From contig SVRP01000004.1 of the NCBI GenBank assembly GCA_015064735.1, forward strand, positions 76,800 through 140,799: 64,000 nucleotides of DNA, given 5' to 3'. Shown in pieces: positions 12,500 through 16,965 of the stretch (its first letter is position 1; each line of letters opens with the position of its first letter). The translations under genes were made by a program, and so were the position numbers. The notes under the pieces are model-generated. The model did no database searches and had not been told where the DNA came from. It saw only the letters and a program-made list of their open reading frames with translations. The stretch comes from Oscillospiraceae bacterium (GTDB taxonomy: Bacteria > Bacillota > Clostridia > Oscillospirales > CAG-272).

Positions 12500-13012
12500 T
12501 TTAGGGGCGTACACTAAAGGACAACCTTACAAGAATACGGTATATCTCGTAAGAGGTATGCCGTATTTTGCGTTTGTGGACATAAATGCAGTGCTTCGTA
12601 TGTCTTAATTAAAGACATAAACCCTTAAAATTATAGGAAACTCGATAGGGGCGAACGGTGTTCGCCTCGCAGAATACTCATACGGTTTGCGTGTTAATTT
12701 AAGCCTTCCCCAGTGGGGGAAGGGGGACCGCGATAGCGGTGGATGAGGTGTAAGAAAACGCCACACAAACTCCTCATCCGTCAGCCTTCGGCTGCCACCT
12801 TCTCCCACAGGAGAAGGCTTTTTTGTACCTCCCGGAAGGTAATTGAATAGGCCTTTGATATGTTAATGTCAAAAGTGCCTTTTGCGCTGCTTTTTGCAAA
12901 ATTGCGGTAGGGGAGACCCCTCCCCTACGGTGATAGAATATTATTTGTCTGTAGGGGAGGCGTTTCGCCTCCCGTTTGTTGTCTTTAATTAAATCAGTAC
13001 TTGTCAGGAAAA
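12500..13012 (+). repeat. Composite intergenic repeat, copy 1
   Basis: About 510 bases that align collinearly, in opposite orientation, with 41779-42184. Shared landmarks in order: TTTAGGGGYGTACWCTAAAG, the palindromic ACGGTATATCTCG/GAGGTATGCCGTAT hairpin, TTAATTAAAGAC, GCCTTCCCCAGTGGGGGAAG, ACCGCGATAGCGGTGGATG, CTCATCCGTCAGCC, CACCTTCTCC, GTCAAAAGTGCC, and TTAATTAA with CTTGTCA. This copy also holds two short insertions absent from the other: one around 12645-12670 and a GTAGGGGAG/CTCCCCTAC hairpin pair around 12906-12975. The central block resembles an intergenic repeat I know from many gut Clostridia. Short open frames inside it are not genes. Confidence 0.85.
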
Positions 13013-13193: not shown

Positions 13194-13222
13194 TTTACAA
13201 GCTACAAATTTTGTGATATAAT
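13194..13222 (+). promoter_or_regulatory. Sigma-A promoter of the structured leader
   Basis: TTTACA (13194-13199), 17 bases, exact TATAAT (13217-13222). The predicted start, about 7 bases on, is G13229, the very first base of the leader's closing stem. Confidence 0.8.
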
Positions 13223-13228
13223 AATTGT

Positions 13229-13440
13229 GCCAAACAATCTTAATATTCATAGTTATAGGTCTTTTTCTTGTTATGGGATAACTATAGCTTTTTTCGCTAT
13301 ACAATTAAGCAAACTCGTTTTGGTAAAAACGCTACTCCTGCTTGATTGTATAGAGAACCTATGCTATGAAGAGATTGTTTGGCGACAATTGGAGTTGGCG
13401 TTTTTCGGTGCGGTAACTCCGGTTGCCGCACTTTTATTTT
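13229..13440 (+). ncRNA. Candidate structured RNA: leader/attenuator or small RNA, family not recognised
   Basis: A long closing stem pairs GCCAAACAATCT (13229-13240) with AGATTGTTTGGC (13372-13383), continues as TTCATAG/CTATGAA (13246-13252/13364-13370) and ATAGGT/ACCTAT (13255-13260/13357-13362). A 14-bp inner stem pairs 13297-13310 with 13340-13353 (one G-U) and is capped by CGTTTT/AAAACG (from 13316). The asymmetric 5' bulge holds GTTAT-GGG-ATAAC (13270-13282). After a 24-base linker comes an intrinsic terminator (13408-13440), then the ribosome site of the next gene. This could be a riboswitch-type attenuator or a free ~210-nt RNA; the rod with an internal bubble is loosely 6S-like. No ligand or family can be named from sequence alone. 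Confidence 0.7.
13408..13440 (+). terminator. Intrinsic terminator inside the leader
   Basis: GTGCGGTAAC (13408-13417) pairs with GTTGCCGCAC (13422-13431), 10 bp with one G-U and a TCCG loop, followed by TTTTATTTTAT. It ends only 7 bases before the TAGGAGG of the next gene, the arrangement of a transcription attenuator. Confidence 0.85.
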
Positions 13441-13461
13441 ATCTTTTAGGAGGATATTCTT

Positions 13462-13875
13462 ATGAAAAAAACACTTTCAGTCGTTGGATTGATTATCGGC
13501 ATTTCTTTTGTGGTGGTGGGCATTTTATCGGTATCTGGAGCTTTAGGGGGAAAGACATCTTCTCCATCAAGTGCTCCATATAGCTATGATTCAGGCTATG
13601 CTACTTTTGGAGCGGATTACTACAACTATTCAGTTAACAATTCCGCAGAAGCAGCAAGTGCAGCAAGAACGGCAGCTTATAACATTGGACATGTTTCCCA
13701 TTTCCTTTTAACTTTCTTCGGACTATCTTCTATACTGTTCGGACTGATGGTGATGTGTGGATTTGGCATAGTACTTTCTTCTTGCACCAAAAAGAACGAG
13801 AAAAACATCGTGGGTAGCGAAACAAAAATTGCTACAGAGAACACAGATTCAACCGATGAAGCATCTGTAAAATAA
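13462..13875 (+). CDS. Small two-TM protein of unknown function
   Basis: 137 aa. A transmembrane segment at residues ~5-28 (VVGLIIGISFVVVGILSV), a Ser/Tyr/Ala-rich loop of about 45 residues, and a second at ~80-105 (FLLTFFGLSSILFGLMVM) ending in a CGFGIVLSSC cysteine pair, then a charged tail with Lys, Glu and Asp. I recognise no family. TTAGGAGG lies 8 bases before the ATG. The gene sits directly downstream of the structured leader with its terminator, so its expression is probably conditional. A classic terminator follows at 13950. An overlapping frame at 13227-13583 is rejected because it runs through the RNA stem and shares no ribosome site. Confidence 0.75.
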   Translation: MKKTLSVVGLIIGISFVVVGILSVSGALGGKTSSPSSAPYSYDSGYATFGADYYNYSVNNSAEAASAARTAAYNIGHVSHFLLTFFGLSSILFGLMVMCGFGIVLSSCTKKNEKNIVGSETKIATENTDSTDEASVK

Positions 13876-14010: not shown

Positions 14011-14041
14011 AACACGGCACATTGAAAGCAGCCGTGTTTTT
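14011..14041. terminator. Hairpin at the 3' end of valS
   Basis: AACACGGC (14011-14018) and GCCGTGTT (14031-14038) lie just past the valS stop. The T-run is on the plus side, so as a valS terminator it would be weak. The adjacent TTCAAAAACTGTCCTT (13992-14007) also occurs inverted at 41700-41715 beside the second repeat copy. Confidence 0.4.
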
Positions 14042-16686
14042 TATTTCATTTTTGCAAGAGCGGACTTAACGCCCTCAAGATTTTCCTTGTATTTCTCAAG
14101 CTTTGCCTTTTCGCCTTCGACTACTGCGGCGGGAGCCTTTGCTACGAATCCCGCGTTGGAAAGCTTCTTATCAAGACGGTCGATCTCACCGAGAAGCTTC
14201 TTTTCTTCAGCCTCAAGTCTTGCGATTTCCTTTTCGGTATCAACGATATCCGAAAGGGGAAGGAAGATTGTTGCGGAGTCGGTGATTATCTGTACTGCGT
14301 CGTCTGCGGAGATAACACCCTCAAAGCTGTCAGCAATCTCAACCTCAGATGCCGAAGCAAGTCTTTGGAAGAATACAGCCGTGCTTTCGTTAAAGGAGTC
14401 GGTGTACTTGGTTGCAATATAAACCTTTGCCTTGCGGGAGGGAACTACGTTCATTTCGTTTCTGCGTGCACGGATAGCCTTTATCGCTGTGATCACTCTG
14501 TTCATCTTCTCCGCATCAGCCTCAAAAACAAGTGCCTCGTCAAACTTGGGGTAAGAGGATATCATGATGCTTTCATCGGAGTGGGGAAGAGACTGATAGA
14601 TTTCCTCTGTAATAAAGGGAATGAAGGGGTGGAGAAGCTTGAGTGTTCCCGTAAGCACAAAGCCGAGAACGTTCTGGGCTACCTTGTTACCCTCGGATTC
14701 CTTATCGTTGAGACGCGCCTTGGTAAGCTCAATATACCAGTCGCAGAATATATCCCAGGTAAAGTCGTAAATAGAAGCAAGGGCAACGCCAACCTCGTAT
14801 TTGTCAAGAGCGGCAGTTACGTTTGCTGTGAGCTTGTTGAATTCGTTGAGTATCCACTTGTCCTCGGAAGCAAGCTCGTTCTCTGCGGGAAGCTTGATCT
14901 CGTCAATAGTAAGATTCATACGAACGAATCTTGAAGCGTTCCAAAGCTTGTTAGCGAAGTTTCTTGCTGCCTCGATCTTTTCATCGGAGAAACGCATATC
15001 GTTTCCGGGGGAGTTACCCGTAGCCAAAGCGTAGCGGAGAGCGTCTGCTCCGTACTTGCTGATTATCTCAAGAGGATCTATTCCGTTTCCGAGAGACTTG
15101 GACATCTTTCTGCCCTGAGCATCACGGACGAGACCGTGTATAAATACGGTGCTGAAGGGCTCCTTATCCATATGCTCAAGGCCCGAGAATATCATTCTCG
15201 CAACCCAGAAGAATATGATGTCGTATCCCGTAACGAGTGCGCTTGTGGGATAGTACTTCTTAAGCTCTTCGGTATTGTCGGGCCAACCCATGGTCGAGAA
15301 GGGCCACAGGGCAGAGGAGAACCATGTGTCAAGTACGTCGTTTTCCTGACGAACCTTTGATCCGCACTTGGGACATACGTCGATGTCTGTTTTGGACACG
15401 GTCATTTCACCGCAAGCATCACAGTAGAATGCGGGAATTCTGTGCCCCCACCAAAGTTGACGGGAAATACACCAGTCGTGTACGTTTTCCATCCAGTTTA
15501 CGTAGGTTTTGCTGAAGCGCTCGGGAACGAATTTAACTCTGCCGTCTCTTACAACGTCGAGAGCGGGACCTGCCAAGGGCTCCATCTTAACGAACCACTG
15601 ATTGGAGGTTATAGGTTCAACGGTGGTTCCGCAGCGGTAGCATGCGCCTACGTTGTGTGCGTGGGGAACTGTCTTTATGAGAAGCCCCGCTGCTTCAAGA
15701 TCAGCAACGAGAGCCTTGCGGCACTCATATCTGTCCATGCCCTCATACTTGCCTGCATGAGCATTCATGGTCGCGTCGTCGTTCATGACCTTTATCTGCT
15801 CAAGGTTGTGTCTCTGACCTACAAGGAAGTCGTTGGGGTCGTGAGCGGGAGTGATCTTAACACAGCCCGTTCCGAATCCTATCTCAACGTAATCGTCCGC
15901 AATAACGGGAATCTCTCTGTTTACTATGGGGAGAATAAGTGTCTTGCCGATAAGGTGCTTTGTAGCTTCATCCTCGGGGTTAACGGCAACGGCAGTATCA
16001 CCGAACATTGTTTCGGGACGGGTCGTAGCAACCTCAACGTAGCCATCCTCACCCTTTATGGGGTACTTTATGTGCCAGAAAAAGCCTTCCTGCTCGGAAT
16101 ATTCAACCTCAGCGTCAGAGAGAGCAGTGATACAGTGAGGACACCAGTTGATTATACGGTTTCCTCTGTAGATAAGTCCCTTGTCGTAAAGATTAACAAA
16201 AACCTCACGGACAGCGCGGGAGCAACCCTCGTCCATGGTGAAGCGTTCTCTTGTCCAGTCGCAGGATGCGCCGAGCTTCTTGAGCTGGCTTATAATGCGG
16301 CTGCCGTACTGATGCTTCCAATCCCATACTCTCTCAAGGAATTTTTCTCTGCCGAGATCGTACCTTGTAAGTCCTTCGTTAACACGAAGCTGTTCCTCAA
16401 CCTTTATCTGAGTAGCAATTCCCGCATGGTCTGTTCCGGGTACCCAAAGGGTATTGAAGCCCTGCATTCTTTTGTAACGTACGAGAATATCCTGGAGGGT
16501 CTCGTCGAGGGCATGTCCCATGTGGAGCTGTCCCGTTACGTTTGGGGGCGGGATAACGATAGAAAATGCGGGAGCGGGATTCTTTACGTCGGGCGTAAAA
16601 TATCCTTTATCACACCAATTCTGATAGATTCTGTCCTCAAATTCCGAAGGGGAATATACCTTCGGCAGTTCGTTGTAAGAGTTCAT
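14041..16686 (-). CDS. valS: Valyl-tRNA synthetase
   Basis: 881 aa, the normal length. It charges tRNA-Val with valine in the cytoplasm. The class I signature HIGH appears as HMGH near residue 57 ([13 protein letters not shown]) and the KMSKS loop near residue 527 ([11 protein letters not shown]). The editing domain lies between, and the C-terminal ~65 residues are the coiled-coil arm typical of ValRS (Glu/Lys/Leu-rich). A zinc-type CDACGEM...CPKCGSK pair is present near residues 425-445. A T-box leader and an exact-consensus promoter precede it, so transcription should depend on uncharged tRNA-Val. Confidence 0.98.
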
Positions 16687-16704: not shown

Positions 16705-16965
16705 AATAATATTTTTTACAAAAAGAAAAAGCCCCCGTCCGTATCAGGACGTGGAGCACGCGGTACCACCTGATTTTGCATAGAGAAAGATATCCCCATA
16801 CACACTCAAAGCCGATAACGGTGGCAACCGTTGCGGACTACTGAAAACTTCACCCGCAAGGCTCAGAGGCGACTTCACTCTTCTCCAACACGGACTCGCA
16901 CCCACCGTCCGTTCTCTGTGCTTGGCAAAAAGAATTACTACTCCTCGTCGAAGCCTGTTTATATC
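16705..16965 (-). promoter_or_regulatory. T-box leader of valS
   Basis: On the minus strand the conserved T-box AGGTGGTACCGCG is at 16759-16771, followed by a terminator stem (about 16721-16757; GCTCCACGTCC against GGACGGGGGC, then TTTTTCTTTTT). The 5' part contains stem I with GAGTAGTAATTC at about 16933-16945, which offers GUA, a valine codon, as the likely specifier. The antiterminator forms when the acceptor end of uncharged tRNA-Val pairs with the T-box bulge. The family call is strong; the exact specifier is inferred. Confidence 0.93.

Follow-up and report, generated by a model that had tools for sequence, protein, structure and literature searches.

A probable transcription attenuator, in which one strand has two predicted and mutually exclusive partners, precedes many unrelated genes in Clostridia

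The window analysed here is a stretch of 64,000 nucleotides from an Oscillospiraceae bacterium (assembly GCA_015064735.1, contig SVRP01000004.1, positions 76,800 to 140,799), and our subject is a structured leader RNA at 13229–13440 that lies between a promoter and a small gene, all on the plus strand. The promoter (13194–13222) consists of a −35 element TTTACA (13194–13199), a 17-nt spacer and an extended −10 element TATAAT (13217–13222) preceded by TG, and scores 11 of 12 matches. Because the −10 element ends 6 nt before the closing stem P1, the transcript should begin with P1, i.e., at 13229. Behind the leader, a Shine–Dalgarno sequence AGGAGG (13448–13453) precedes an open reading frame (ORF) at 13462–13875 that starts with ATG and encodes 137 amino acids, with hydrophobic stretches at about residues 1–31 and 79–109 in a simple hydropathy window. 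An earlier note, made from the letters of the window alone, had proposed such a promoter, a ribosome site after the T-rich tail, and a protein with two transmembrane segments, and these proposals agree with what we find. A Pfam search assigns the protein to no family above cut-off, and at E ≤ 1e-5 none of 29 other genomes of the genus contains a match to it.

The leader folds far more stably than expected from its composition: its minimum free energy (MFE) is −84.6 kcal/mol (z = −9.72), and none of 200 dinucleotide shuffles is equally stable, so that the structured leader itself, as first described, is real. When the linker, strand D and the terminator are removed, the fold still has z = −9.62. 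P1 pairs 13229–13241 with 13371–13383 in 12 Watson–Crick pairs and one G-U. Above it, P1b pairs 13246–13260 (13246–13253 and 13255–13260) with 13357–13370 as two helices, one of 8 pairs and one of 6, and a one-sided bulge holds a small hairpin (13270–13288). The inner stem P3 has 15 pairs, between 13297–13311, which lies within the pairing that we call A:C, and 13339–13353 (strand C). P3 encloses a predicted apical hairpin A:B at 13316–13331 (13316–13321 with 13326–13331), the 3′ side of which lies within strand B (13325–13338). After P1 come a linker, GACAATT (13384–13390), strand D (13391–13406) and an intrinsic terminator (13407–13440), i.e., a hairpin at 13407–13432 of −18.9 kcal/mol followed by a T-rich tail. 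The layout given in the earlier note, including the bulged hairpin and the terminator hairpin, thus recurs in the computed fold, with its stem lengths corrected to a 13-pair P1, helices of 8 and 6 rather than 7 and 6, and an inner stem of 15 rather than 14.

Strand D is predicted to have two partners. It may form a pseudoknot with B (duplex energy −18.0 kcal/mol), or it may pair with the 5′ arm and loop of the terminator, in an antiterminator that extends into the linker from 13386. The whole-RNA MFE fold of the window copy holds the antiterminator and not the terminator: 13386–13397 pairs with 13414–13425 and 13399–13401 with 13410–13412, which overlaps both terminator arms, and adding the terminator region to the fold of P1 through D lowers the MFE by 20.4 by way of this antiterminator. 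The earlier note had also seen two exclusive folds but had placed them elsewhere, between ATAGTTAT (13249–13256) and ATAACTAT (13278–13285). Both sequences are present, and their pairing overlaps the small hairpin; comparison between copies, however, puts the switch at B:D versus D:terminator.

The element belongs to a large family. An initial DNA search gave a match in 27 of 40 genomes, including the element's own, in which seven further places matched. A covariance model built from 35 long copies (R1) found ten sense matches in the own genome and matched 62 of 197 genomes of the order, in 43 of 111 genera; among its weaker matches, many represent a short form about 130 nt in length. A second model built from 35 short forms (R2) found eleven sense matches in the own genome. 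Across the class its matches cover 91 of 391 genomes and 54 of 223 genera; in a phylum sample of 398 genomes, some of the same class, it matched the own genome only. These large-scale counts are lower bounds, with stricter filters and 8 or 13 candidates scored per genome. When six carriers, chosen for their many matches, were searched closely, the numbers were 7, 8, 10, 10, 19 and 23. A search with an exact long-form pattern reported 85 stretches, and we used every one of the 80 that it listed; these 80 named records all bear titles that mark them as metagenome-assembled genomes (MAGs) or uncultured, are mostly from Clostridia, and in many cases carry animal-gut sample names.

From these searches we assembled 198 copies: 40 from early loci and stretches (set a_, with L028 omitted as a repeat of L007), 40 short matches selected among those that the R1 search of the order listed (s_), 39 in set o_ and 79 in set g_. 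Antisense and truncated matches were dropped (8 and 3 of 90), as were 5 antisense of 44. Seven copies had no parsed terminator, and 170 of the other 191 were non-redundant; the strand-swap test described below used 110 of these 170, leaving out 60 g_ copies. Once the pairing hypothesis had been fixed, 24 further copies were retrieved from other orders of the class; for this second set the terminator parser allowed slightly longer loops than for the first. The alignments hold 35 of the 40 a_ copies (A1), 32 of the 40 s_ copies with 3 a_ copies (A3), and 29 of the 40 s_ copies with the 24 later ones (A5, the 53 short forms).

Across copies the order of parts is P1 enclosing P1b and P3, an apical segment with a conserved A-run and strand B, the linker (most commonly GACAATC, in 81 of 183 copies), D ending in a U-run, and the terminator. 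A −10 hexamer stands upstream of P1 in 169 of the 170 non-redundant copies, with the 6-nt gap in 132, and a −35 of four matches in six or better in 124. In the alignment of 35 short forms, 11 of the 12 P1 pairs have changed on both sides while 96.4% of P1 cells pair; P3 pairs in 77.1% of cells. RNAalifold on the long copies (A1) recovers P1 only, with 13 pairs of which 8 have changes on both sides, because the inner stems differ in length, and the strand-swap test was used in its place.

In this test, duplex energies of strands from the same copy (cognate) are compared with those of strands shuffled between copies, for five proposed pairings and eight control strand pairs. All five pairings are stronger within copies than between them. 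In the 110 copies the z values are −30.5 for P1, −31.5 for A:C, −14.2 for B:D, −8.7 for A:B and −8.3 for D:terminator, with none of 2000 permutations as strong for any of them, against −1.9 to +2.9 for the controls. In the 24 copies from other orders the corresponding values are −10.3, −12.8, −3.8, −4.6 and −4.9, each with none of 5000 permutations as strong, and the controls span −0.8 to +3.0. The pairing B:C is weaker than shuffled in both sets (z = +2.9 and +3.0), which is what one would expect if strands B and C compete for A.

Column counts in the 53 short forms, with the structure read from one of them, point the same way. P1 is paired in 99.4% of cells, B:D in 95.8% (33–64% when slid), D:terminator in 90.5% (20–55% in sliding controls), and P1, B:D and the terminator jointly in 96.9%; the covariation score of D:terminator lies above all 500 shuffles. 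The linker changes together with the terminator as well. Its base and the terminator partner are A/U in 119 of 162 copies, U/A in 15, A/A in 2, U/U in 3 and other combinations in 23; the antiterminator continues through the linker in that 102 of the 162 pair at all four linker positions examined. Specifically, a linker CAAT goes mostly with a terminator GTTG (77 copies) and a linker CTAT mostly with GTAG (14). The antiterminator is the MFE structure of the tail in 113 of 183 parsed copies (11 copies were unparsed), compared with 35% when linker and D are swapped between copies.

These pairings suggest a simple mechanism. Transcription would start at the first base of P1, and P1, P1b and P3 would hold up the apical strand B. 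Strand D, the last to be made before the terminator, would then choose between B and the antiterminator partner, i.e., the 5′ arm, the loop and the start of the 3′ arm of the terminator. If the B:D pseudoknot forms, the terminator would be left free and transcription would stop (OFF); if B remains paired in the A:B hairpin, or if the pseudoknot is unfavourable for another reason, D would sequester the terminator arm and allow read-through into the gene (ON). Since D is common to both pairings, the pseudoknot and the antiterminator cannot coexist as modelled. In the energy calculations the terminator would be the natural outcome with the pseudoknot, and without it the antiterminator would be at least as good. 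From this scheme we infer that the element switches in cells, and also which state is the default and what sign the control has; specifically, B:D is assigned to the OFF state because of the pairing logic and the order of synthesis.

An intrinsic terminator lies between promoter and coding sequence in the window copy and in the family, and covariation backs a predicted antiterminator that would exclude it. The pairings, their covariation and mutual exclusivity, the promoter motif and the position of the gene can be regarded as established at the level of sequence comparison. We therefore consider the element to be a cis-acting transcription attenuator of an RNA family for which we found no description, with a probability of roughly 0.8. 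Of the two labels in the earlier note's 'riboswitch or attenuator', it is the attenuator that gains from these data, as covarying and mutually exclusive pairings link the pseudoknot to the terminator; no Rfam riboswitch matches. A constitutive, leaky terminator that sets low and unregulated expression would also fit a promoter followed by a terminator, and no signal is known, but a terminator alone needs no covarying pseudoknot and antiterminator that share one strand, and we consider this very improbable.

Several results weigh against attenuation as described. With −4.3 kcal/mol, A:B is a weak pairing in the window copy, which leaves it uncertain what would keep B off D. Three of the eight controls reach z = −1.9 in the 110 copies (48, 56 and 57 of 2000 permutations as strong, nominally 2–3% each), and all shuffle tests ignore kinship among copies. 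The 24 later copies, among them four tandem pairs and some copies similar to one another, come from a search with R2, a model that encodes P1, P3 and the U-A part of A:B, so that only B:D and D:terminator are model-free there. The 60 g_ copies show no excess for D:terminator (z = 0.6), as would be expected of a set chosen by an exact D pattern, in which D is invariant. Double-sided changes in D:terminator, the weak one of five measures, are equalled by 51 of 500 shuffles; a linker A faces C in 13 of the 162 copies; and the tail MFE differs from the antiterminator in 70 of the 183. Finally, a gene start within 40 nt is missing from 41 of 177 distinct loci, and in a later set it is present in 12 of 23 loci and absent from 11; some of the copies that lack one are the upstream partner in a tandem pair.

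The position of the genes bears on a rival explanation, in which the element is a discrete small RNA of about 205 nt, 6S-like or otherwise trans-acting, and the adjoining gene is incidental. Its own promoter and strong terminator suit such an RNA, as do the 41 loci without a close gene start. In 136 of the 177 distinct loci (142 of 183 with the six exact duplicates that entered the first gene, family and promoter counts), the T-run is followed within 40 nt by a Shine–Dalgarno sequence and ORF start. Among the other terminator-like sites of these loci, which were found with a different detector and so are an unmatched control, this holds for 28 of 323. Such spacing leaves little room for a second promoter, and it is not clear what a free RNA would do with a covarying antiterminator. 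The earlier note had specifically raised a 6S-like molecule, which these positions disfavour; RF00013 (6S) gives no match at gathering threshold in the window and none in the genome at E ≤ 10, in a search of limited sensitivity that matches 8 of 14 control genomes, the own assembly being 95% complete. We hold a small RNA of this kind to be improbable.

Regulation by a leader peptide was considered and rejected: 21 of 170 copies have a Shine–Dalgarno sequence and an ORF of at least five codons inside the RNA, where mononucleotide shuffles give a mean of 37.1 (sd 3.8), and the commonest putative leader peptides occur three times only.

The genes behind the element are diverse. Single-linkage clustering at E < 1e-4 sorts the 142 distinct genes that lie within 60 nt into 83 families, of which the largest, with 29 members, is made up mostly of lipoproteins and repeat proteins. 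In a Pfam search of 86 of 148 adjacent proteins (set A4, shortened to 400 amino acids), 53 families were matched, with at most three members each among the 25 listed; they include DUF6809, zinc ribbons, BspA-type repeats, collagen repeats, LiaF-like and AMP-binding domains, helix-turn-helix domains and an EcoRI-type methyltransferase. An anti-phage regulon was rejected as an explanation, the 36 PADLOC families matched having one member each (of the 86 proteins) among the 25 listed. Small cysteine-rich proteins (CCDECDYxLLC) stand directly behind the element in L008, L019, L021, L022, L031, L035 and others, and this family has 13 members among the adjacent genes by single linkage. Another recurring family, behind the element in L010, L015, L025, L078, L090, L101 and L117, presumably resembles SLOG-fold proteins.

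The comparison of copies indicates that promoter, switch and terminator form a portable unit preceding many unrelated genes. Among pairs of cores at least 80% identical, 163 of 170 distinct pairs precede proteins without similarity at E < 1e-3, and at 90% identity this holds for 14 of 18; the window copy and a second copy in its own genome have cores 98% identical and unrelated genes. Conversely, L005 and L014 have promoters 93% alike, terminators 100% and genes 81%, yet their cores are 65% identical, as against 66% for random pairs of cores. The L005 core is 86% identical to that of the window, and the L014 core 95% identical to that of L036. Because the cores fail to match where the flanks do, cores appear to have been exchanged between loci.

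Such mobility could also mean that the element is a mobile repeat, of the miniature inverted-repeat transposable element (MITE) or repetitive extragenic palindrome (REP) kind, which carries a promoter and terminator and is kept by transposition rather than by regulation. The up to 23 matches in one genome, the near-identical cores before unrelated genes, the core swapping and a palindromic repeat upstream of two near-identical copies would all be natural for it. Promoters and flanks differ between copies, however, with no fixed ends seen that would bear on an insertion-sequence or prophage origin (transposases were not searched for systematically), and the gene lies directly behind in one fixed orientation in the 136 loci counted above. 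Moreover, P1 keeps its pairing in nearly all cells of the 53 short forms even though random cores are only 66% identical, which speaks for selection on the RNA. We regard the mobile-repeat explanation as unlikely, and attenuation by a portable unit remains our preferred reading.

Some further observations concern the surroundings of the copies. The palindromic repeat is 131 bp long (window 12700–12830), has 30 matches in the own genome, seven of them near full length, and lies upstream of both near-identical element copies (the one in the window, and one at C23:68099–68222 with the core at C23:68296). At the gpsA site, blastn gave no match to the element in the flanks of 15 relatives that have gpsA (at most 1500 nt of flank, for some far less, and divergent copies could escape). 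Since no valS turned up in these flanks either, the relatives do not provide a clean empty site. Tandem pairs of elements are found in L226, L227, L228, L229 and L007, with a promoter-like stretch before each copy and cores 70–83% identical within a pair, and the last copy closely precedes a gene in L007, L226 and L229. A phage or plasmid origin was considered and rejected: one long-form D pattern had no exact match in IMG/VR, and one short copy used as query had no plasmid match. That short copy does match three unannotated faecal 'Bacteriophage sp.' records, of which one was inspected and has no features. In L246, an unannotated and putatively phage record of this kind (16.6 kb, from human faeces), the match is partial and lies at 2076–2235.

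With respect to known RNA families, Rfam 15 gives no match on the element at gathering thresholds in the window or 20 related loci, and nothing credible at lax E-values on the window copy, L160 or L226, so that the earlier statement that no known family fits holds for Rfam 15. RF00230 (T-box) has no match on the element in a scan that does find a T-box leader at 16742–16960 on the minus strand (146 bits), directly before an ORF at 14041–16686 that we take to be valS; a tRNA is also found in the window. In the accessible portions of the open-access literature, including PMC11109978, PMC8040213, PMC8632094 and PMC2965389, we found no description of the family, supplementary tables, where unnamed motifs may sit, lying outside that search.

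A family present in 91 of the 391 class genomes sampled, with 23 matches in one of them, is thus without an Rfam 15 model or a description in the literature searched. It is possible, if rather doubtful, that it represents a class of ligand-responsive switch for a global signal (e.g., a second messenger), which spreads as a promoter–switch–terminator cassette and so puts newly acquired or orphan genes of gut Clostridia under one shared signal. The sequences AATA in J1, GGT in the apical segment and the U-rich spacer are well conserved outside the switching helices, which suggests them as places to look for a sensor. If the attenuator works as proposed above, many kinds of surface, membrane and orphan genes of gut bacteria would come under a single signal, and the movement of the switch as a unit from gene to gene would show directly how mobile noncoding DNA can rewire regulation. 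Since the pairings are spelled out, a few mutants would suffice to test the mechanism.

Terminator-type riboswitches are structured leaders in which alternative pairings decide the fate of an intrinsic terminator, and one class may stand before many genes; T-box leaders are likewise long leaders with a choice between terminator and antiterminator. 6S RNA measures about 200 nt and has internal bulges as well as a closing stem, and the ToxI RNAs of type III toxin–antitoxin systems contain tandem short repeats. With riboswitches the element shares the structured leader, the alternative pairings at an intrinsic terminator and the occurrence of one class before many genes, but it lacks an Rfam riboswitch match, its switching strand is predicted to join an apical strand in a long pseudoknot, and the promoter is part of the conserved unit. 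It shares with T-box leaders the length and the terminator/antiterminator choice without matching their model, and resembles 6S RNA in size, closing stem and bulges, except that a gene follows its terminator at once. Like ToxI, which PMC8040213 mentions, it is a structured RNA that immediately precedes a protein gene, but the genes behind it form 83 families and not one toxin family, and its unit contains no tandem short repeats. Among the closest systems are riboswitches with a terminator/antiterminator platform, such as the c-di-GMP riboswitches (see PMC6366702). The nearest printed concept that we found, in Naville and Gautheret (2010; PMC2965389), is that of 'mobile attenuators', i.e., related attenuator sequences before unrelated genes. 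The element described here agrees with it in that related attenuators stand before unrelated genes, but differs in its repeated unit, which comprises a promoter, a conserved and covarying putative switch, and a terminator.
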